A stretch of 27,731 nt of DNA from a virus, in the IMG/VR virus record IMGVR_UViG_3300046533_000890, positions 1 to 27,731 of that record; one strand, 5' to 3'. A model generated the notes under the pieces. That model worked only from the letters and a program-made list of their open reading frames with translations. It ran no database searches and was not told where the DNA came from. The position numbers and the translations under genes were made by a program. Positions 3,647-17,609 of this stretch are shown one piece after another (the first letter of the stretch is position 1; each line of letters opens with the position of its first letter).

Positions 3647-3874
3647 GTGCACACCAATGGCCTGAGCGACGAAGAGCTGCGCAACCGGTTCTTCTACCAC
3701 CCTCCGACCGAGGCCACGTTGCCGAAGTTCGCCGCGATCAACGAGGCGTGTTTCGCGTTGGCCAAGGTGATCCGCGACACGGTTCCACCCGGACGCGGCC
3801 TGGCGCTGGCGCTCACTCACCTGGAGGACGTGCGCATGCGCGCGAACTTCGGGATCGCCACCGAGTCGACGTGA
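3647..3874 (+). CDS. Acb2-like (anti-CBASS 2, DUF7681-type) small protein candidate
   Basis: A GTG start two bases after the previous stop gives a 75-residue all-helical protein. It contains RFFYHPP (residues 14-20), a proline-centred turn (TVPPGR), and near the C-terminus LALALTHLEDVRMRANFGIA (residues 52-71). This order closely resembles phage Acb2 proteins, which carry RFxYHPP near the N-terminus and a SLALTxLEEAxMWANAAIA-like C-terminal helix. Characterised Acb2 proteins are hexameric sponges that bind the cyclic di- and trinucleotides made by CBASS and so block that defence. The aromatic Tyr of YHPP is kept. In my by-eye alignment, basic positions of homologues are N32 and A34 here, so ligand preference may differ. 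A longer in-frame version from 3458 overlaps the upstream gene and reads as noise. The family match is from memory and was not searched. Confidence 0.65.
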   Translation: MHTNGLSDEELRNRFFYHPPTEATLPKFAAINEACFALAKVIRDTVPPGRGLALALTHLEDVRMRANFGIATEST

Positions 3875-4629: not shown

Positions 4630-4868
4630 TCATCTCCAAGACCAAGTTCCTTGGTATCGGCGTGCCGTCGCGGCCGAGTGCCTGCCCGCAGTGCCGGAAG
4701 ACCATCGAGGTCGACAGCTTTGTCGTCTACGACGGCGACAAGTGGCTCGGACACGCGACGTTCTTCTGCTCGGAGGAGTGCCTGCAGAAGGACCCGGCGC
4801 TCGAGGACAGGTCGCACCACCGGGGCGACGGCAAGCCGATGCAGTGGTCTTGGGAAGCTGATGACTGA
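4626..4868 (+). CDS. FCS-type zinc-finger protein (80 aa)
   Basis: Starts inside an ATGA overlap with the small-terminase candidate; the stop lies inside the start of the large-terminase gene (8-base overlap), so it is embedded between the two packaging genes. It has C20-x2-C23 (SACPQC) and C48-x3-C52 in FFCSEEC, the treble-clef arrangement of FCS/TRASH/MYM-like zinc fingers. The C-terminus is acidic and tryptophan-containing (MQWSWEADD). A second protein with the same cysteine plan lies after the terminase (6986-7201). The role is unknown. The position suggests a packaging accessory or nucleic-acid or protein-binding factor. A longer frame through this region is only the terminase frame extended upstream. 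Confidence 0.7.
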   Translation: MIISKTKFLGIGVPSRPSACPQCRKTIEVDSFVVYDGDKWLGHATFFCSEECLQKDPALEDRSHHRGDGKPMQWSWEADD

Positions 4869-6579
4869 TCCAGTCACATCGATCTCGCTCGAGGACCTGC
4901 GCATCGAGAGACTGGCGCGCGAGCGCGACTACTACACCTCCGAGGACGGCTTCCTCGACTTCGTGCGTGACAGCGGCGCGGCCCCCGATGCCGAGTGGCA
5001 ACCGCATGGACGCTACTGCCAGGAGCTCATCACCTGGCGAGGCGAGGTCGACAAGGACAACCCGGAGATCACGAACTTCAAGTCGAAGTGCGTGCTCTGG
5101 CCGCGCGGCTCGTTCAAGAGCCAGGTGTTCACGATTGGTCAGGCTGCCTGGCTGATCGCGCGCGATCCGAACATCCGAATCCTCATCTGCTCGGAGACTG
5201 CGCGACAGGCGCAGAAGTTCTCTGCCGAGGTGATGAAGATCGTCGACAGCCAGTGGTTCCGTGACCGCTTCGGCGTCCACCGCGGCGACAAGTGGAAGGA
5301 AGCCTCTGGCGTGTTCTACAGCGCGTTGCGGACGCGCCAGGGCATCAAGGACCCGACGCTCGCGTCGTCAGGCGTCGGCGAGGTGCAGACTGGTTCGCAC
5401 TGGGACGTCGTGTTGATGGACGACGTTTGCTCGCAGGAGAACACCAAGACGCCGGAGTCGATCGAGTCGCTGTGGACGTGGTTCTCCGAGGTGCAGTCGC
5501 AGCTCGACCCAGGCACGAAGCTGTTCGTCATCGGCACGCTCCACCACTACAACGACATCTACTGCAAGATCATCAAGGACGACGCGATCGCCGCGACCTT
5601 CGAGATCAGCAAGCACGCATGGGCTGACCCGATCGTCGACCCGAGGAGTGACTCGCCGACGACGTTGTTCTTCCCCAAGAGGCTGACTCGAGCCTTCGTC
5701 GCCGACAGGAAGATCAAGCAAGTGCCGCGCCTCTACGCCTGCTTCTACGAGAACCGGCCACAGACGGGCGAGGACCAGATCTTCCACGCCGAGTTCTTCC
5801 ACGTGATCCGCGACCAGGACGTGCCGAGTGCGGTGTGGACCTACGTGTTCACGGACTTCGCCTTCATCGCCGAGGAGAAGAAGAAGGCGAAGGCTGATCG
5901 CACGTGCTTCTGGGTCGTCAGCCTCGACTGCAACCGTGTTGCCTACGTGCGCGACTTCTACGTCGGCAGGTGGCGGCCGTCGGACTCCTGCCGGATCGTG
6001 TGCGACCTGTGGACGAGGTTCCAGCCGCTGAACGTGAAGGGCGTCGGCGTCGAGAAGGTGACGCACAAGGAGCTCCTCATGTCGCTGTTCGAGGAGATCC
6101 GCCGACAGACCTTCATCCGACCTCGCTTCATCGAGATCGAAGGGCGCAACCAAGAGGTCAAGGACATCAGGATCGAGGCGATCGAGCCGCGCTTCCGCAG
6201 CGGCAACATCTACTTCACCGAGTCGCTACGTCAGCAGTTCCAGACGAAGTGGAAGCCGATGTTCGACGAGATGACGGAGTGGCCGTTCAGCAAGCACGAC
6301 GACATCCCCGACGCGATCAGCGACCTCGACAAGATCGATCCGAGCGGCAAGTTCTACTTTCCAGCTCCACCCCCTGGATGGGTGCCGATGGAAGTGCGAC
6401 GCTTCGAGCCGCCGACAGTCTATGGCCGCTACAACCCGCGGCTCGACTACCCCGCGCGCGAGTTCACCAAGAACAAAGAGCACGACCTGTGGAACAGCAA
6501 GCAGTCAGAGGCCGCACCGGGGTCTCTCTTCCGCGGAACACCAAACCAGTCAAACCGCGACATCTTCGGCCAGCAGTAG
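4861..6579 (+). CDS. terL: terminase large subunit (packaging ATPase-nuclease)
   Basis: The motor that threads DNA into the prohead and cuts the concatemer; 572 residues. The ATPase domain shows a Walker A-type loop WPRGSFKS (residues 80-87), Walker B VVLMDD (183-188) and a coupling motif VIGT (223-226). The nuclease domain begins with VFTDFAF (Asp332), has GVGVEKV (Glu398), and ends with HDDIPDAISD (479-488), the usual C-terminal metal-binding aspartate motif of terminase nucleases. All expected motifs are intact. The ATG at 4861 (MTDPVTSISLEDLRIERLAR) overlaps the preceding gene by 8 bases and has GGGAAG upstream. The same frame is open back to 4651, but that part is the zinc-finger gene's out-of-frame shadow. 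Confidence 0.93.
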   Translation: MTDPVTSISLEDLRIERLARERDYYTSEDGFLDFVRDSGAAPDAEWQPHGRYCQELITWRGEVDKDNPEITNFKSKCVLWPRGSFKSQVFTIGQAAWLIARDPNIRILICSETARQAQKFSAEVMKIVDSQWFRDRFGVHRGDKWKEASGVFYSALRTRQGIKDPTLASSGVGEVQTGSHWDVVLMDDVCSQENTKTPESIESLWTWFSEVQSQLDPGTKLFVIGTLHHYNDIYCKIIKDDAIAATFEISKHAWADPIVDPRSDSPTTLFFPKRLTRAFVADRKIKQVPRLYACFYENRPQTGEDQIFHAEFFHVIRDQDVPSAVWTYVFTDFAFIAEEKKKAKADRTCFWVVSLDCNRVAYVRDFYVGRWRPSDSCRIVCDLWTRFQPLNVKGVGVEKVTHKELLMSLFEEIRRQTFIRPRFIEIEGRNQEVKDIRIEAIEPRFRSGNIYFTESLRQQFQTKWKPMFDEMTEWPFSKHDDIPDAISDLDKIDPSGKFYFPAPPPGWVPMEVRRFEPPTVYGRYNPRLDYPAREFTKNKEHDLWNSKQSEAAPGSLFRGTPNQSNRDIFGQQ

Positions 6580-6989: not shown

Positions 6990-7201
6990 GCCTGTATGAA
7001 ACCGTCACCGTGGAGTGCGTCGGCTGCGGCAAGCAGGTGACCATTCCCTCTGGCAAGCACGAACTAGCGAGACGCAATGGACAGCAAAGACCGATTTTCT
7101 GCTCCCAGAAGTGCAACCAGCTCTTCGTCGCCAGAGAGGGATCGAAAGAGCAAGAGCGAGTCAGCGCCGCCGCTCTTGGTCGTCGTCCCCACAACGCCTG
7201 A
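6986..7201 (+). CDS. second FCS-type zinc-finger protein (71 aa)
   Basis: The GTG start overlaps the previous stop as GTGA (an in-frame TTG at 6977 is less likely). The product begins VSLYETVTVECVGCGKQVTI and has C11-x2-C14 and C39-x3-C43 in the motif IFCSQKC, the same plan as the zinc finger before the terminase. The tail is charged. The second half of the gene, including the FCSQKC motif, overlaps the next frame for 125 bases, so this stretch is read in two phases if both starts are right. The function is unknown. The paired zinc fingers on either side of terL suggest related accessory roles. Confidence 0.6.
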   Translation: MSLYETVTVECVGCGKQVTIPSGKHELARRNGQQRPIFCSQKCNQLFVAREGSKEQERVSAAALGRRPHNA

Positions 7202-7784
7202 GACCGTCGACTCGCTGGATGAGTGCATCCAGGGGATCATGCAGTGCACGCCGATCGACTTCTCGTTGACGGTTGCGCTTGAAGGCGAGATCGACGAGGA
7301 GACCACCGGCGAAGTCGTGGCCATGCTTGGTGGCATCAATCGCACCAACAAGTGGAAGCTGATGGAGTCGGCCAACGGGATCAACCACTCGATCGATCGA
7401 GACCTCGGCAACTCGATGGAGCAGTTCGTCGTCGTCGTCCCGGCCGATCGAGTGATCAAAGACCCGGAGTGGTTCGGCAAGATGCAGATGCCGTTCACTA
7501 AGGACTCGACGTGCGGCATGTCGTTCGCCTTCGACAACATGGCTGGCAACACCAGGCCGCCGCACCGATGGGACCACCGCTACAAGATCCCCGGCACCGT
7601 GTTCATGGTGCCGCGGTTCGCGATCGACAACGCGCGCCGAGCGATCAAGTTCGCCGTTGCCGACTCGGACTACGCCGACTGCTTCAAGCACGCCCTGGTC
7701 AGTCTCGGCTTGTCGGCGTGGGGCGTCCCCTCCGCCAGGATCTACCCGGTGGTCCGGCAGAAGGTCGTTCCCGCCGAAGAGTGA
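7077..7784 (+). CDS. GT-A-fold glycosyltransferase-like protein (GT2-like)
   Basis: From about residue 33 the product shows a Rossmann-like start LLVVVPTTPETVDSLDECIQ. It then has a second strand FSLTVALEGE, an asparagine-containing helix (ESANGINHSIDRDLGN) and a strand-plus-loop FVVVVPADRVIKDPEWFGKM. The order and spacing resemble GT2-type glycosyltransferases, but the DxD site is only A-D-R here, so activity or metal use is doubtful. The first 32 residues are Ser/Arg/Lys-rich and overlap the zinc-finger gene. A TTG at 7176 would start exactly at the fold and is the main alternative start. The stop overlaps the next start (GTGA), coupling it to the CgeB-like gene, so the two probably act in one glycosylation pathway. 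Confidence 0.6.
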   Translation: MDSKDRFSAPRSATSSSSPERDRKSKSESAPPLLVVVPTTPETVDSLDECIQGIMQCTPIDFSLTVALEGEIDEETTGEVVAMLGGINRTNKWKLMESANGINHSIDRDLGNSMEQFVVVVPADRVIKDPEWFGKMQMPFTKDSTCGMSFAFDNMAGNTRPPHRWDHRYKIPGTVFMVPRFAIDNARRAIKFAVADSDYADCFKHALVSLGLSAWGVPSARIYPVVRQKVVPAEE

Positions 7785-9136
7785 TCAGGGTCTTGGGCGT
7801 CAAGGGACCACCGCGGATCGCGATCGCTGACGACGCCGGGCTCATCTACAGCGACGACTGGCGCATGGGCTGGCTCTCCGGCTTCAAGCGCATGGGCTGC
7901 GAGGTGATGTCTGTCGACGTCTCGTCGCTTCGAAGAGCCAGCGGTGGAGGGATCCTGAGTTCGCGTGGCACGACGGCGGTGAGAGCTCTCTCGGATTCGA
8001 TCCTGAAGTGGAAGCCTGACCTTGTGTGGTGCCACCACGGGCGCGCAGCTGGCAACGAGTCGTTCCTGTCGCAGTTCAAGAGGCGCGGCATTCCAACGGC
8101 CGTCTACCTTTGCGATGAGCCATACGAAGTTGGCGAGACTGCGCGCTACAGCCCGAGGTTTGACTTCGTGTTCACCATGGACCTGTGCACGCTGAAGGCG
8201 CACTTGGAGTCGAGGCCGCAACCGCAGCGGAATGGCGTCTTCTACTTGCCGGCATGCGTGGACGACTTGCTGTTCACTCAGCGTGACTACTCGCATCGAC
8301 CTGTGTCCGCGTTCTTCCTTGGCAATCCGATGCTGAAGCCGAGGGAGCCATACCTCCGTGCTGTCGAGAAGCTCGTGGCCGGCGCCGACATCCGCTACTG
8401 GCCTAGGCCGAAGGCTGGTCGAAAGGCGATCGTCGCGAAGGGGAATCCAGACTGGATCCCATGGAACAGGCATCCAGAGTTCTACGCGAGCTGCGTGGTA
8501 GGGCTGAACATCCACCGCGATCCAGGCATCACCGCCGACTGCTTCAGGATGAGGGTGGAGCGCCGACCACACTCGATGGCGGTCCCAACTGGCTTGTCGC
8601 TGTGCAAGGAGAAGCCGGCGAGTGATGGAACTGGGTTCTGGAACGACGCGAACCTGCCTGCGTCGCACGTCAACCCAAGGTTCTTCGAGATGGCCGCGTG
8701 CGGGACCATCGTGGTCAGTGACGACTCGAGGTCGGAGCTGCGACGGATGTTCCCGATGGCTCCGAGGGCTGCCGACGTCGACCACTTCGTCGAGTTGGTG
8801 CTCTACTACATTGCGCATCAGGACGAGGCCGAGGAGATTGGTGCTGCATGCTCACGTCAGGTATTGAGGCGGCACACCTACCAGCACCGAGTGGGCGAAG
8901 TCCTGACTCGCGTTGGCTTGATGGAGTTGGTGCCGGAAGAAAGGCGTTCATCTTTGGGGGCGCCCCCGGACTGGTTGAGTCCGCAGGATTCCGAGCTTCC
9001 AGAGGACAGATCTCGATCGGAACCAACTGGACCCTCAGAGCGATGGTCCCCAGCATCTGGCTTGTCGTGGACGCGGGGGTCTGGAAGTCCGAAGGACCTC
9101 AGCTCGCTCGATGTCCCTCAACCATGGTTGTCGTAG
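7781..9136 (+). CDS. CgeB-like glycosyltransferase
   Basis: GTG 7781 overlaps the previous stop as GTGA. The 451-residue product has an N-terminal Rossmann half with KPDLVWCHHGRAAGNESF and PTAVYLCDEPYEVGETARYS. Its C-terminal half has NPRFFEMAACGTIVVSDDSR (about residues 298-317), the nucleotide-sugar-binding region typical of CgeB-like/Glyco_trans_1_2 GT-B enzymes, and ends with RRHTYQHRVGEVL, also typical. The predicted reaction is sugar transfer from an activated donor; the acceptor cannot be read from the sequence. Virion proteins, host surface sugars or modified DNA are all possible. The last 60-70 residues (after about 8940) are low-complexity and lie over the next gene in another phase, so they may be a non-essential tail, or the true end may involve a frameshift. 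Confidence 0.75.
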   Translation: MIRVLGVKGPPRIAIADDAGLIYSDDWRMGWLSGFKRMGCEVMSVDVSSLRRASGGGILSSRGTTAVRALSDSILKWKPDLVWCHHGRAAGNESFLSQFKRRGIPTAVYLCDEPYEVGETARYSPRFDFVFTMDLCTLKAHLESRPQPQRNGVFYLPACVDDLLFTQRDYSHRPVSAFFLGNPMLKPREPYLRAVEKLVAGADIRYWPRPKAGRKAIVAKGNPDWIPWNRHPEFYASCVVGLNIHRDPGITADCFRMRVERRPHSMAVPTGLSLCKEKPASDGTGFWNDANLPASHVNPRFFEMAACGTIVVSDDSRSELRRMFPMAPRAADVDHFVELVLYYIAHQDEAEEIGAACSRQVLRRHTYQHRVGEVLTRVGLMELVPEERRSSLGAPPDWLSPQDSELPEDRSRSEPTGPSERWSPASGLSWTRGSGSPKDLSSLDVPQPWLS

Positions 9137-9711
9137 CTGGGGCCAACATCTTCGGAGGTGGTGTCTTCAGCACCGCGCACGCGCGGAAGATGAAGATGGT
9201 CGGGCAGGGACAGCGATCGATCACCGAGATCAAGATCAAGTCTCTCGGCGGAGCTCGTCGCACGAAGACTGGGGCGATCGAGTTCGCTGTGGAACCTCCC
9301 TACATGCCGGCGTCCATCGCTGATCCGTTCCACCCAGGAGCCAACAGCTTGTGCTTCGCGATCCAGTTGGCGCACCTGATGGGTTGCAGCCCGATTTTCG
9401 CTGTCGGATTCACGCTGCAGAACGGCTCCGGCTACCACTTCGGCCGCATCAATCCAGTCACCAAGCGTTCCACGTTCTACGAGCAGAAGAGGGCCTTGGC
9501 ATGGTGCGAGTGGCACGCCGCCTCCTTCCCTGGTAGGGTTCAGCTCGACCCTGGTTTCAGCGGTCCGATCTACGACATCTTCCCCAAGGCGAACTTCGAT
9601 GAAGTCCAAGAACCCGCCGGATCACATGCTGCCGACGATGGCCGACACCAACCAGAGTCGGCTGACGGGCATGCCGCTCAAGAAGAGCCAGTTCGACTAC
9701 ATCGACCCTGA
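8848..9711 (+). CDS. MptE/DUF115-like protein (sugar- or pterin-type Rossmann enzyme)
   Basis: The frame has only one usable start, ATG 8848, which lies 289 bases inside the CgeB-like gene. The recognisable domain begins at about residue 33 with AFIFGGAPGL (a glycine-rich loop like GxGPSL) and continues ISIGTNW (about residues 55-61) and PSIWLVVDAGVW. It ends with GANSLCFAIQLAHLMGCSPI, then FAVGFTLQNGSGYHF. These match the order of motifs in MptE-like/DUF115 proteins, a fold shared with pterin pyrophosphokinases and near sialyltransferases. Phage relatives often sit with glycosyltransferases, as here. The N-terminal 30 residues and the last 38 (over the next gene) look like linker sequence. 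Donor and acceptor are unknown. Confidence 0.6.
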   Translation: MLTSGIEAAHLPAPSGRSPDSRWLDGVGAGRKAFIFGGAPGLVESAGFRASRGQISIGTNWTLRAMVPSIWLVVDAGVWKSEGPQLARCPSTMVVVAGANIFGGGVFSTAHARKMKMVGQGQRSITEIKIKSLGGARRTKTGAIEFAVEPPYMPASIADPFHPGANSLCFAIQLAHLMGCSPIFAVGFTLQNGSGYHFGRINPVTKRSTFYEQKRALAWCEWHAASFPGRVQLDPGFSGPIYDIFPKANFDEVQEPAGSHAADDGRHQPESADGHAAQEEPVRLHRP

Positions 9712-9940: not shown

Positions 9941-12382
9941 ATGACCGTTGCTTCTGACAGGCTGCAGATCGGCAACTCCACGAACCCTCCGATGACGAGG
10001 GTCAACTCATACGCGACGCCGAACCGCGGGATGGGTGTTGCGACCGCGAAGCCGGGAACGGATCCGGTGTTCGGCGCGCACTCACTGGTTGAGACCTACC
10101 AGGACAACCAGAACGTCGCGAAGGTCAGCAAGCTCTACAACGAGATGGTTGGGTTTCCGAACCTGGCCAACGATCCGTTTGTGCTCGAGCAGGCCAAGGC
10201 CGCGGTGCTCGCTTCGCTGAAGGACGTCTTCGCGACGATGCAGTATCTGCGGAACAAGTGGTTGATCCTCTACCGGCTCTACAGGGGCGAGACGATCAAC
10301 CAATACAACTATGGCCGCATGCAGCTGCACTCGCCGACGCCGTTCAAGCTCGTCGAGTCGATCCACCCTCGGATCATGCGGACGGTGTTCGGGAGCGACA
10401 ACTGGTTCAAGCTCTACGGCGTCGATGAGGAGCATGATGTGCCGGCGGCGGCGCAGGAGATGCTCTGCTACGACCAGCTGCGCGTGTGCGGCTTCAAGCA
10501 GAAGGCGTCGCGCTTCATTCGCGACGGCTTGATCTACGGCACCGCGATCCAGAAGACCTACTGGAAGCAGGAGATTGGCGAGAGGTCGTATCGCGTGGCT
10601 CGTCGAGTGCCGGACCCGAAGATCCCTGGCGCCACGAAAGCTGACCTGCAGCCGGTGACGAGGAAGGAGTTGCTGTTCGACGGCAACGACGTCCTGCCGA
10701 TCAGCATCTTCGACTTCCAAGCCTCTCCGTGCGCGTCCTCAATCGATGAGGCCGAGTGGTGTCTCGACCGGTCCATGTGGCCCGACTTCCGCGTGAAGCA
10801 GATGGTCGAGATGGGCCACTGGGTCAACCTGGAAGGCTTGGCCTCCTACGGCGGCAGCAACGACTTCAGCTACGAGGACCCGTTCAAGCAGCGCAAGGCT
10901 TACGCCTACGGCGTCTACGACAACCGGAACGGGGCGCAGTCGCCGCACATCCCGCACTATGAGTGCGTGGACTGGTGGGGGCCGCTGGTGATCAAGGACG
11001 AGAGTGGGTCCTACACGACCCGGATCTGCAACGTGGTGATGCTGGATCCGAACGGCCTGTCGCTGATCCCGCGCGTCACACAGAATCCGCACTGGCACGG
11101 GAAGAAGCCCTACCAGGTGTGGAGGCCGATCGAACTCGAGGGCGAGCTCTTCGGGATGGGCGTGATCGAACCGATCGCGCGTCTCTCCGTCGAGAAGGAC
11201 ACGAAGCGCCAGCTGTTGATGGCTTCGACTCAGCTCGAAGGCAACCCGATGATGGTTGTCTCCGACCAGGCGAACATCGCGCCTGGGCAACTGCTGGCTC
11301 AGCCAGGCTTGGTGATCCGTGTTCCCGGCAATCCGAACGAAGCGGTGATGCCGGTGCAGTTCAACCAAGTCAGCGACACGGTTCTGCGCGCGGAGAACGT
11401 TCTCGAGGTCGAGATGCGCGAGGTCTCCGGCGTGACCGCGCCGGTGTTGGGAGCGACAGATCCGCTGGGTGGATCCGGCAAGACTGCGACGCAGAGCAAC
11501 AACGACCTGAATGAGGCGAACATGCGCCTCAGCGGGCCGATCAACAACTACGACACCGAAGTCACGGTGCCGATGCTGGACATGCTCTGCTGGAACAACA
11601 TGCAGTTCATGTCGCTCGCTCGAGTCATCCGACAGGTCGGGCCGACTGGGATGAGCTTCCGCGATCGCTTCATGGTGCGCCCCGAGGACATCATCGGTCG
11701 GTTCATCGTGCAGCCGCTGTCCGGCTTCCGCTTGCTAACGAAGCAGACGCAGATCCAGCAGATGGTGAACCTGTTGGATCGCGCTCCGGTGATCAACCAG
11801 ATGTATGGCCCCAAGGCAGTGAACATGCCTCGGCTGTTCGCCTACATCTTGGAGATGGGCTTCGACATGCGGAACGTGGACGACTTCATCCAGAAGTCTC
11901 AGCAGGAGTCGGTTCTGCTGTCCGCGATCGAGGAGCACGAGCTCTGGTATCACGGCAACGTTCCGCCGCGTCGCGCGGACGACAACGACTACCGTCACTG
12001 GCTGGCGCACAGCGAGGAGCTCAAGACCGATCGCTTCTCCATGCTGGACGAGTCAGACCCGCAGACCGCGGCCATGGCGAGAGCTCACATCGCCGACCAC
12101 ATGCGATCGCTCGCGAGGCTGTTCGAGCGGCAAGAAGAGACGATGATGATCATGCAGCAGCAGTCGACGATGCAGAACCTCGCTGGTGCGACCGCCTACG
12201 CTGGTGGAGGCATGACCGAGGATCTCGGTGGAGTCGGTGGCGAGGCGCCGGAAGGCGCGGCGACTCCAGATCAGCAGCCCAACAGTCCGAAGATCAGGAC
12301 GAACGAGACCCAGCCGCCTGGAGCGAACGCTGACGTCAAGTCGCCGGCCATGGCTGGTGCGCCCAACGCGGGGGCGATGTGA
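9941..12382 (+). CDS. portal protein (head-tail connector)
   Basis: An 813-residue protein in the right place, after terminase and before scaffold and capsid. The order fits a podoviral portal: a helical N-terminal region (LRNKWLILYRLYRGETINQY), a wing region (LVESIHPRIMRTVFGSDNWF), a central stretch (WRPIELEGELFGMGVIEPIA), and a stem/clip part with ASTQLEGNPMMVV and VSGVTAPVLGATDPLGGSGK, then TATQSNN. It ends with a methionine/glutamine-rich helix (RQEETMMIMQQQSTMQN) and a disordered C-terminus. The dodecameric portal is the pore for DNA packaging and exit and binds terminase and adaptor. The length is at the large end, as in podoviruses with extended barrels. No strong ribosome-binding site is visible; the stop overlaps the next start (GTGA). 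Confidence 0.87.
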   Translation: MTVASDRLQIGNSTNPPMTRVNSYATPNRGMGVATAKPGTDPVFGAHSLVETYQDNQNVAKVSKLYNEMVGFPNLANDPFVLEQAKAAVLASLKDVFATMQYLRNKWLILYRLYRGETINQYNYGRMQLHSPTPFKLVESIHPRIMRTVFGSDNWFKLYGVDEEHDVPAAAQEMLCYDQLRVCGFKQKASRFIRDGLIYGTAIQKTYWKQEIGERSYRVARRVPDPKIPGATKADLQPVTRKELLFDGNDVLPISIFDFQASPCASSIDEAEWCLDRSMWPDFRVKQMVEMGHWVNLEGLASYGGSNDFSYEDPFKQRKAYAYGVYDNRNGAQSPHIPHYECVDWWGPLVIKDESGSYTTRICNVVMLDPNGLSLIPRVTQNPHWHGKKPYQVWRPIELEGELFGMGVIEPIARLSVEKDTKRQLLMASTQLEGNPMMVVSDQANIAPGQLLAQPGLVIRVPGNPNEAVMPVQFNQVSDTVLRAENVLEVEMREVSGVTAPVLGATDPLGGSGKTATQSNNDLNEANMRLSGPINNYDTEVTVPMLDMLCWNNMQFMSLARVIRQVGPTGMSFRDRFMVRPEDIIGRFIVQPLSGFRLLTKQTQIQQMVNLLDRAPVINQMYGPKAVNMPRLFAYILEMGFDMRNVDDFIQKSQQESVLLSAIEEHELWYHGNVPPRRADDNDYRHWLAHSEELKTDRFSMLDESDPQTAAMARAHIADHMRSLARLFERQEETMMIMQQQSTMQNLAGATAYAGGGMTEDLGGVGGEAPEGAATPDQQPNSPKIRTNETQPPGANADVKSPAMAGAPNAGAM

Positions 12383-14284: not shown

Positions 14285-15316
14285 ATGACCTCTTTCATCG
14301 GTGACACTTCGATCCTGTCCACGTTCGACGTCGAACGTGGCAACCGTGAGGATCTCCTCGAGATCATCACGAACATCTCGCCCATGGACACGCTCATGCT
14401 GTCCGGGCTGGAGAAGGTTCCCGCGAGCAACACCACGCACGAGTGGCTGGTGGACATCCTCGCGGACTTCGGCGACCCGGACGTTGGCAATGCCGACGTG
14501 CAGGCCGTCGCGGAAGGTTCGGACGCGACGTTCGAGCCTCTCGTTCCTCGCAAGCGTCTGTGCAATCTGACGCAGATCATCCGCCGCACGTTCGATGTGT
14601 CGGATACCCAGCGCGACGTCAACACCGCGGGCATCCGCGATGAATACGTCTACCAGCTGCGCAAGGCGTCGATGGAGCTCGCTCGCTTCATCGAGTTCGC
14701 TCTGGTGCACTCAATCCGTCAGTTCCAGACGGCTCAGGGCAACAGCGTGGGCGTGCTGCCACGCAAGATGGACGGCTTCTACGCCTTCGCCGCAGCCAGC
14801 GACCCGACCTGCGTGACGACCCTCGGCCTCTCCGAAGAGGAAATGGGCACCGTCACCCACGTCACCGGTTCGTCCCCGACGAACTGCATCACCGAGTGCG
14901 TGCTCAACGAGCAGCTCGAGGCGATGTGGAACAAGGGCGCGATGACCGACACCATCTGGGTGAACGCTGCCCAGAAGCGGAGCCTGTCCAACCTGGTGCT
15001 CAACCCGAACAGCCAGGTCCGCTACAACATCAACGTCGCCGAGCGCACGGTGATCAACACGGTCGACTTCTACCAGTCCGACTTCGGGACGCAGAAGATC
15101 TACCTGCACCGCTACCAGTCGACGGACGTCATCTCGATGGCCGAGGCGAACAAGCTCCGCATCGCGGTGCTCCGCCCCGTCCTCGCTGTCGAGCTGGCGA
15201 AGGTCGGCAGCAGCACCAAGGGCATGATCGAGTGGGAGGGCACCATGGAGGTGCTTGCTCCGAACGCGATCGGCTTCATCTACGGCCTGTGCACCGGCGT
15301 CGCCGGCTGTCCGTAG
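14285..15316 (+). CDS. major capsid protein (SU10-like, DUF5309 type)
   Basis: A 343-residue protein after the scaffold. Hallmarks that fit the SU10/DUF5309 capsid family are an N-terminal stretch REDLLEIITNISPMDTLMLS followed by a beta region with THEWLVDILADF. There is also the strand-rich segment KRLCNLTQIIRRTFDVSDTQ, a long spine helix (YVYQLRKASMELARFIEFAL), and a C-terminal beta region ending NAIGFIYGLCTGVAGCP. These proteins use the HK97 fold and build the icosahedral shell. The start is the first ATG after a short gap; the product begins MTSFIGDTSILSTFDVERGN. The stop is TAG. A zinc-ribbon frame continues in phase right after it (see 15320-15445). Confidence 0.8.
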   Translation: MTSFIGDTSILSTFDVERGNREDLLEIITNISPMDTLMLSGLEKVPASNTTHEWLVDILADFGDPDVGNADVQAVAEGSDATFEPLVPRKRLCNLTQIIRRTFDVSDTQRDVNTAGIRDEYVYQLRKASMELARFIEFALVHSIRQFQTAQGNSVGVLPRKMDGFYAFAAASDPTCVTTLGLSEEEMGTVTHVTGSSPTNCITECVLNEQLEAMWNKGAMTDTIWVNAAQKRSLSNLVLNPNSQVRYNINVAERTVINTVDFYQSDFGTQKIYLHRYQSTDVISMAEANKLRIAVLRPVLAVELAKVGSSTKGMIEWEGTMEVLAPNAIGFIYGLCTGVAGCP

Positions 15317-15923: not shown

Positions 15924-17609
15924 ATGGCATCAACCTTCCAAGACGACTTCGATCGAGTGGATGGGCCGATCGGCAGCGACTACCTGATCCCCTGCGGGAG
16001 CGTCTCGATCTCGAGCGAGGCAGTGATCCCGGTCGGTCTGTCTGGTGGCTCGCCGGAAACGTTCGACCCGACCAACGTCAAGACGCAGGTCCTGATGGTC
16101 TCGGAGGACATGGACTCTCCAGACCAGGTGCTGCGAGCGGTCTGGGCACGCGACCTGAACCCTCCGACAGGAGGAGCGCCGCTTCCTGCTGATACCGACC
16201 CAGCCTTCTCCATCCTGGCTCGCATGAGCAAGGACCCGCTGATCGTCGATCTCGGCGTCGACGAAGATCCATACTGCTACGACCAGGGCTACGGCCTTCG
16301 CGTGACGTGCCCGCTCGACAACAGCGCGCCGATCCTGAAGATCATCAAGTTCCAGCCGCTGCGCCGGGCTCCGAGCCTGAACCGGCCGTCGTCCAGCGAG
16401 CCTGATGGAGCGACCGTGTTGGCCTCCTACACGCTGCAAGCTCCCGACCTGAACGTCGACCCGGTGTGGCTGGCTGCGCAGTCGCTGACCGAGCCGGCGA
16501 CTGGCGACATCCCCTACCAGGGCTTCTGGCAGGACATGCGCCTGCGCATCCGTCGTGGCGAGGCTGAGGTGATCCTCGAGGCGTTCATCAACGATCGCCA
16601 CCTGAACCAGCCGGCGCTGACCTACACCGACAAGCGAGACCCTCTGTGGTCTGTCGTCGGTCGCCCTGGGTTCGAGTTCCTCTCGGCCACGGACGACTCG
16701 CAGCCTGTTGGCGCGAGTCCCTACGCTCTGATCGGCGAGCCGTTGATGCGTTGCACACTGTTCGCGACGCAGACGGTGAAGGAGTTCACCAAGCCGGTGG
16801 TCCTCTCGCCGGACAACTTCTTCACCTACCAGGAGGTGGTCAACAGGGTCATCGTGCTGGTCGAGAAGAACGGCGACGCCAAATACACGGCTACCGCGTC
16901 CGGGCGCACGAAGATCGACACCTACCTGCAGTTCGTGCTCGACGCCGAGGCGCACATCATCAGGAAGACCGGCTTCTGGCGATGGCTGTGGAGAGAGGAG
17001 TCGATCTACTTCCGCAACGGCATCGCCAACTACGAGATGCCGGACGGCTGCGGCATGATCGACCTGATCCGGCCGGGCAACTACAGCGGGCCGCCACTGA
17101 AGCAGGTCCCGCAGTGGGAGTTCAGGAAGCGATACGGCTCGGTGAGCGGAGCCGGCGGTCCGCCGAGGATCTACATGCTCAAGGGCGAGTCGGTGAACAA
17201 CCGTCTGGAGATCCTGGTCTACCCGACGCCAACAGTCCTGACCGCGACCGGTGTGGTTCCCACCACGCAGGTGGAGACGTCGTTGGTCGCCGACCCCTAC
17301 ATGCAGGTCGAGTATTACTCCAAGCGGCTCCGACCGACGAAGATCGCCCAGCAGATCCCCTACATCCCACAGGAACACATCGACGTGTTGATCTGGGGCG
17401 CCGCGGCGCACGCCATGGTCCTCGACACCGATGCGGACAACACCGCAGCAACTCAGCAGCTGTTCGACGCCAAGCTCCGCGATCTCGTCCGCGAACAGTT
17501 CCGTGGCAACTTCAACGCGCCGGAGGTGATCAGGTCGGCCGCCGACCTTGGCCCTGTTGGGGTGAGCGTGCCGCTTCTGCGCTACCAGCAGTTCGAGGGC
17601 CTCCTGTGA
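15924..17609 (+). CDS. head-tail adaptor protein with N-terminal lectin-like domain
   Basis: A 561-residue, apparently two-part protein. Residues 1 to about 290 start MASTFQDDFDRVDGPIGSDY, a 'DDFxRxDGxxG' opening typical of concanavalin/LamG-like beta-sandwich domains, and stay beta-rich. From about residue 295 (PDNFFTYQEVVNRVIVLVEK) it resembles podoviral head-tail adaptors: a helical core (DTYLQFVLDAEAHIIRKTGF) followed by WRWLWREESIYF, a beta hairpin, and a C-terminal helix with HIDVLIWGAAAHAMVLDTDA. Adaptors form the ring between portal and nozzle and normally lack the N-terminal part, so the fusion is unusual. The stop overlaps the next start (GTGA). The adaptor call rests on pattern and position; the lectin call is weaker. 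A 577-residue antisense frame here is only a shadow. Confidence 0.7.
   Translation: MASTFQDDFDRVDGPIGSDYLIPCGSVSISSEAVIPVGLSGGSPETFDPTNVKTQVLMVSEDMDSPDQVLRAVWARDLNPPTGGAPLPADTDPAFSILARMSKDPLIVDLGVDEDPYCYDQGYGLRVTCPLDNSAPILKIIKFQPLRRAPSLNRPSSSEPDGATVLASYTLQAPDLNVDPVWLAAQSLTEPATGDIPYQGFWQDMRLRIRRGEAEVILEAFINDRHLNQPALTYTDKRDPLWSVVGRPGFEFLSATDDSQPVGASPYALIGEPLMRCTLFATQTVKEFTKPVVLSPDNFFTYQEVVNRVIVLVEKNGDAKYTATASGRTKIDTYLQFVLDAEAHIIRKTGFWRWLWREESIYFRNGIANYEMPDGCGMIDLIRPGNYSGPPLKQVPQWEFRKRYGSVSGAGGPPRIYMLKGESVNNRLEILVYPTPTVLTATGVVPTTQVETSLVADPYMQVEYYSKRLRPTKIAQQIPYIPQEHIDVLIWGAAAHAMVLDTDADNTAATQQLFDAKLRDLVREQFRGNFNAPEVIRSAADLGPVGVSVPLLRYQQFEGLL

Follow-up and report, generated by a model that had tools for sequence, protein, structure and literature searches.

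Does a 75-residue open reading frame beside the packaging genes of a metagenomic virus encode a sponge for the nucleotide signals of bacterial defence and, if so, which of its residues would form the pocket? The question is raised by an acb2-like gene in a 27,731-nucleotide stretch of DNA (IMG/VR virus record IMGVR_UViG_3300046533_000890, positions 1 to 27,731), which was analysed at its full length and is referred to here as the window. A preliminary description, made from the letters alone, had recognised in this gene a divergent relative of the phage Acb2 proteins, which sequester the cyclic oligonucleotides of the cyclic oligonucleotide-based antiphage signaling system (CBASS). Translation of the plus strand returned the 75-residue product with both of the motifs that had been described, RFFYHPP at residues 14-20 and LALALTHLEDVRMRANFGIA at residues 52-71 (Table 1). 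Our data indicate that the window gene adds a member to a family that is known and already annotated, that the pocket of its product appears rearranged, and that this product is most likely a CBASS-type cyclic-nucleotide sponge, probably hexameric, directed against CBASS or a related signal-based defence.

The PF24729 profile (Acb2_Tad1_hairpin) matched residues 17-71 of the window protein with 49.8 bits against a cut-off of 27 (E 3.9e-13), the PHROG 1454 profile matched it with an E-value of 5.9e-18, and PF24729 was matched by 76 of the 76 aligned sequences. The same Pfam profile also matches T4 Vs.4 (7.1e-20), PaMx33 p26 (2.4e-18), and the PDB entry 9ptq, "Acb2 homolog 43". PHROG 1454 includes 9ptq (1.6e-12) together with the window protein, and the Acb2 proteins of T4 and PaMx33 sit in PHROG 717. 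A profile built from the relatives found PDB 9ptq (8e-6) and Tad1 chains (about 6e-4); such a profile search was required because phmmer with the single sequence matched nothing in the PDB beyond chance ubiquitin entries, with E-values of 0.24 or worse. Searches of the window protein with NCBIfam and PADLOC gave no match. In terms of distribution, one viral scan produced at least 313 relatives, of which 80 were retained, and tblastn matched 111 phage records, mainly those of Mycobacterium, Paenibacillus, and Gordonia phages, with annotations that read only as hypothetical among the matches listed. A scan of genome contigs found one relative only. The family is already known, because the UniProt names of the matches in BFVD read "Acb2/Tad1 hairpin domain-containing protein", and Acb2-type genes have been called CBASS antagonists in phage announcements (PMC13348362; PMC11953737).

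The AlphaFold2 model is a helical hairpin with a predicted local distance difference test score (pLDDT) of 91.9 and helices at residues 8-15, 25-45, and 50-73, and this layout, a short N-terminal helix and two long antiparallel helices, is that of PF24729. When the PDB was searched by fold, T4 Vs.4 was the top match (probability 0.72, template modeling (TM) score 0.59), with PaMx33 Acb2 and Tad1 lower in the same ranking; the E-value of 2.0 was not significant because the helical hairpin is so short. The best matches in BFVD were significant and were Acb2/Tad1 hairpin proteins with TM-scores of about 0.81. The Acb2-like assignment is thus supported by profile, predicted fold, and homologues. 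Of the checks that had been suggested with it, the profile search returned a PF24729 match above the cut-off and the structure prediction a confident helical hairpin, and neither outcome spoke against the assignment.

Comparison of the acb2-like gene with its close relatives gave nonsynonymous divergence (dN) of 0.10-0.24 and synonymous divergence (dS) of 0.55-1.06, which points to purifying selection and therefore to a real protein. A chance open reading frame was ruled out by the profile matches together with dN/dS. The GTG start lies 2 nucleotides past the upstream stop codon and is preceded by only a weak Shine-Dalgarno signal, which makes this start assignment provisional. Promoter and terminator scans gave no signal exceeding that of shuffled sequence.

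The pocket residues of the characterised proteins were transferred to the window protein with a register set by profile alignment, in which N32 and A34 fall within a gapless stretch. In T4 Vs.4, base stacking involves Y8 and F82, polar contacts come from Y8, H11, K23, and R79, the S74N substitution disturbs a contact with cyclic GMP-AMP (cGAMP), and the hexamer is formed via L29, A66, A73, and A77 (PMC10097602). The T4 residues Y8, H11, T12, K23, L29, and A66 correspond to Y17, P20, T21, N32, L38, and A55 of the window protein, and T68, A73, S74, A77, R79, and F82 correspond to T57, V62, R63, A66, F68, and A71. The PaMx33 residues Y11, K26, R67, T74, and R85 correspond to Y17, N32, R50, T57, and F68. 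The window protein thus keeps the stacking Y17, the helix-cap T21, R50, T57, and the interface residues L38, A55, and A66; the interface residue A73 is replaced by V62, and the T4 ligand contacts H11, R79, and F82 are not kept. These last three and K23/K26 are ligand contacts in characterised members, not criteria of PF24729. Among 153 unique homologue cores, position 17 is Y in 131, position 50 is R in 148, position 57 is T in 148, position 68 is A in 139, and position 71 is A in 144. The equivalents of R79 and F82 are therefore missing throughout the PHROG 1454 branch and not just from the window protein.

The preliminary description had also held that basic residues of the homologues are replaced at N32 and A34, so that the ligand could differ. 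The replacement at N32, where T4 has K23 and PaMx33 has K26, is real. A34 is not notable because position 34 varies freely among homologues, and T4 itself has an alanine (A25) there. A different ligand cannot simply be derived from the lost basic residue, because R63 is gained on the opposite helix and position 34 is variable. The window clade further replaces E51, W65, A68, and R72, and therefore its specificity may differ.

When the 153 cores were compared at positions 32 and 63, 134 were basic only at 32 and 17 only at 63 (R or K), so that exactly one of the two positions was basic in 151; the exceptions were L010, which is a divergent fragment, and L011. The two positions are predicted to face each other in the hairpin, because the helix limits of the model place the midpoint at about 47.5. 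Most simply, one and the same positive charge would come from the other helix, and the dinucleotide pocket is probably rearranged such that R63, on the second helix, provides the basic group that residue 32 gives elsewhere. The best tree required five changes at position 32, and the independent pairs, five in number, were all in agreement, too few for a sign test to reach significance. A single origin may also account for the exchange, because the well-supported branches (61 alignment columns) force only one change at position 32. A second apparent basic exchange was observed in L104, L105, L107, L108, and L114, which have A or P at position 50 and R at position 57. The reciprocal exchange between positions 32 and 63 provides a simple, testable handle on signal tuning by small sponge proteins.

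The residue equivalent to R50 in PaMx33, R67, reportedly lies at the site for trinucleotides such as cyclic triadenylate (cA3). A narrower version of the sponge explanation, which overlaps it, is that the main ligands of the window protein are cyclic trinucleotides of the cA3 type, made by CBASS or by type III clustered regularly interspaced short palindromic repeats (CRISPR) systems and bound through R50 and T57, with the dinucleotide pocket weakened. We hold this as a tentative possibility: R50 and T57 are nearly invariant while T4 K23, R79, F82, and H11 are not kept, and five homologues swap R50 together with T57->R, as if the site needs one arginine. However, the family conserves both Y17 and a basic residue at either 32 or 63, an argument for use of the dinucleotide pocket as well, and T57 may serve either site, because T4 T68M, its equivalent, was described simply as a substitution that reduces binding affinity (PMC12657230).

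Close relatives of the window gene include copies without R50 and T57. The tandem second copy of L004 (4571-4816) and the sole copy of L196 (1247-1495), which occupies the same place on another contig, have R50->I and T57->M, the latter being the equivalent of T4 T68M, together with H18->R and with Y17->D or F. The T4 T68M substitution itself occurs in a Panoptes-resistant phage. The dN/dS of the copies lacking these residues (0.06/0.13) was higher than that of the residue-keeping copies (0.05/0.40), with few changes underlying the former value. These copies may be inactive or in another role, and they offer a ready test of phages shedding sponge activity to evade decoy-nucleotide defences. 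A bolder proposal, which we regard as rather unlikely, is that the remodelled pocket of the clade (basic 32->63, W65->R, R72->T, A68->F) captures a signal unassigned to Acb2, and that the loss of R50 and T57 in the sister copies is an escape from sponge-triggered defences such as Panoptes.

If the window protein acts as a cyclic-nucleotide sponge, its hairpin would pack into a homohexamer, by analogy with the Acb2 proteins of T4 and PaMx33, and the pockets between subunits would hold the cyclic oligonucleotides that CBASS, or a cyclic-nucleotide defence related to it, produces. With the signal sequestered, the effector would stay inactive and the phage cycle would be completed. We infer hexamer formation, ligand binding, the identity of the ligand, and the anti-defence effect from the characterised proteins. 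Several points weigh against the sponge explanation. The dinucleotide pocket of T4 is not reproduced, since P20, F68, and A71 replace H11, R79, and F82; the E-value of the PDB fold match is not significant; and the copies described above indicate that the gene can persist without R50 and T57. In addition, ligand binding by the window protein is argued by analogy, and the phage is a metagenomic one.

Table 1. Positions in the window of the acb2-like gene, its pocket codons, and other genes.
Feature	Position	Strand	Remark
acb2-like gene, 75 amino acids	3647-3874	+	GTG start; Acb2/Tad1 hairpin domain at residues 17-71
Y17 codon	3695-3697	+	T4 Y8, which stacks on a base in the cyclic dinucleotide pocket; kept
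N32 codon	3740-3742	+	T4 K23 / PaMx33 K26; basic residue lost
R50 codon	3794-3796	+	PaMx33 R67
T57 codon	3815-3817	+	T4 T68
R63 codon	3833-3835	+	T4 S74; basic residue gained
Conserved upstream neighbour, 125 amino acids	3267-3644	+	syntenic in L002-L004, L018-L020, L029, L196
Conserved downstream neighbour, 244 amino acids	3895-4629	+	probable terminase small subunit, judged solely by position
Terminase large subunit open frame	4651-6579	+	phrog_38, E 3.3e-70
Glycosyltransferase	7754-9136		Glyco_trans_1_2, E 2.5e-20
Genes flanking the glycosyltransferase	7077-7784, 8848-9711		no assigned function
SU10-type portal, major capsid, and adaptor proteins	9941-12382, 14285-15316, 15924-17609		

The placement of the gene beside packaging genes had at first been considered unusual. 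The order of 125-residue gene, acb2-like gene, probable terminase small subunit, 80-residue gene, and terminase is kept in L002, L003, L004, L018, L019, and L196, where the gap from the acb2-like gene to the small subunit gene amounts to at most a few hundred bases with no more than one small gene or second copy. The first part of this order also occurs in L020 and L029 (39-50% identity), and the locus persists in phages that share 39-86% identity in the neighbouring genes. The 125-residue gene, which had no Pfam or PHROG match over the cut-off, accompanies the acb2-like gene even at about 40% identity. The 244-residue neighbour gave no Pfam or PHROG family match, and the true start of the terminase gene lies downstream of the open frame's start because homology with relatives in tblastn begins at about residue 76. 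Terminase_6N was detectable in 16 of the 40 other relatives' records; in about half of these 16, but not in the rest, the terminase gene shares the strand of the acb2-like gene at a distance of no more than about 6 kb. In Mycobacterium phage Marshawn, the terminase small subunit gene is the third gene downstream of the homologue. A misplaced early gene was ruled out on the basis of these phages. The terminase-side placement is thus not anomalous, because close relatives share it and it recurs in several other phage groups; of the original interpretation, the family assignment stood, while neither A34 nor the placement proved exceptional.

The fixed place of the gene by the terminase genes could instead mean that the hairpin now serves a purpose other than that of a sponge, such as packaging. 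Synteny with the terminase genes is conserved in the phage group, and L196 and the second copy of L004 retain an intact hairpin gene without R50 and T57. We nevertheless find repurposing very improbable, since the window protein retains R50, T57, and Y17 and shows the 32/63 basic exchange, and since many homologues are far from the terminase.

In the window, the glycosyltransferase gene and the genes on either side of it lie between the terminase and portal genes, and L002 has similar open frames after its terminase. The phage appears to be related to SU10-like podoviruses, because its portal, capsid, and adaptor proteins are of the SU10 type.

The window protein, a putative cyclic-nucleotide sponge, is an unexceptional representative of a large family of sponges. 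Its helical hairpin is like the C-terminal one of Tad1 (Thoeris anti-defense 1), and the motif SRExxxALTHxEExxMWxN is common to the Tad1 hairpin and the family of the window protein, which would fit Tad1-like sequestration of the Thoeris signal glyco-cyclic ADP-ribose (gcADPR). We consider this highly unlikely, because the 75 residues of the window protein, all helical in the AlphaFold2 model, are the helical part only, without the N-terminal antiparallel beta-sheet domain of Tad1. With PaMx33 Acb2 (p26, PHROG 717), it shares PF24729 and the pairs Y11/Y17, R67/R50, and T74/T57, and it differs in K26->N32, in R85->F68, and in a low overall identity. With T4 Acb2 (Vs.4, PHROG 717), PF24729 and the pairs Y8/Y17, T12/T21, T68/T57, A66/A55, A77/A66, and L29/L38 are common, whereas the window protein has a shorter region between the helices and the changes K23->N32, S74->R63, H11->P20, R79->F68, and F82->A71. 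Within its own PHROG 1454, which holds 9ptq alongside numerous proteins of actinophages and Paenibacillus phages, the domain, the predicted fold, and the motif order NRFxYHPP ... PxxRExSLALTxLEExxMWANAxIA are the same. Most of PHROG 1454 has R32, E51, a non-basic residue 63, W65, A68, and R72, in contrast to the N32, G51, R63, R65, F68, and T72 of the window protein and its nearest relatives.
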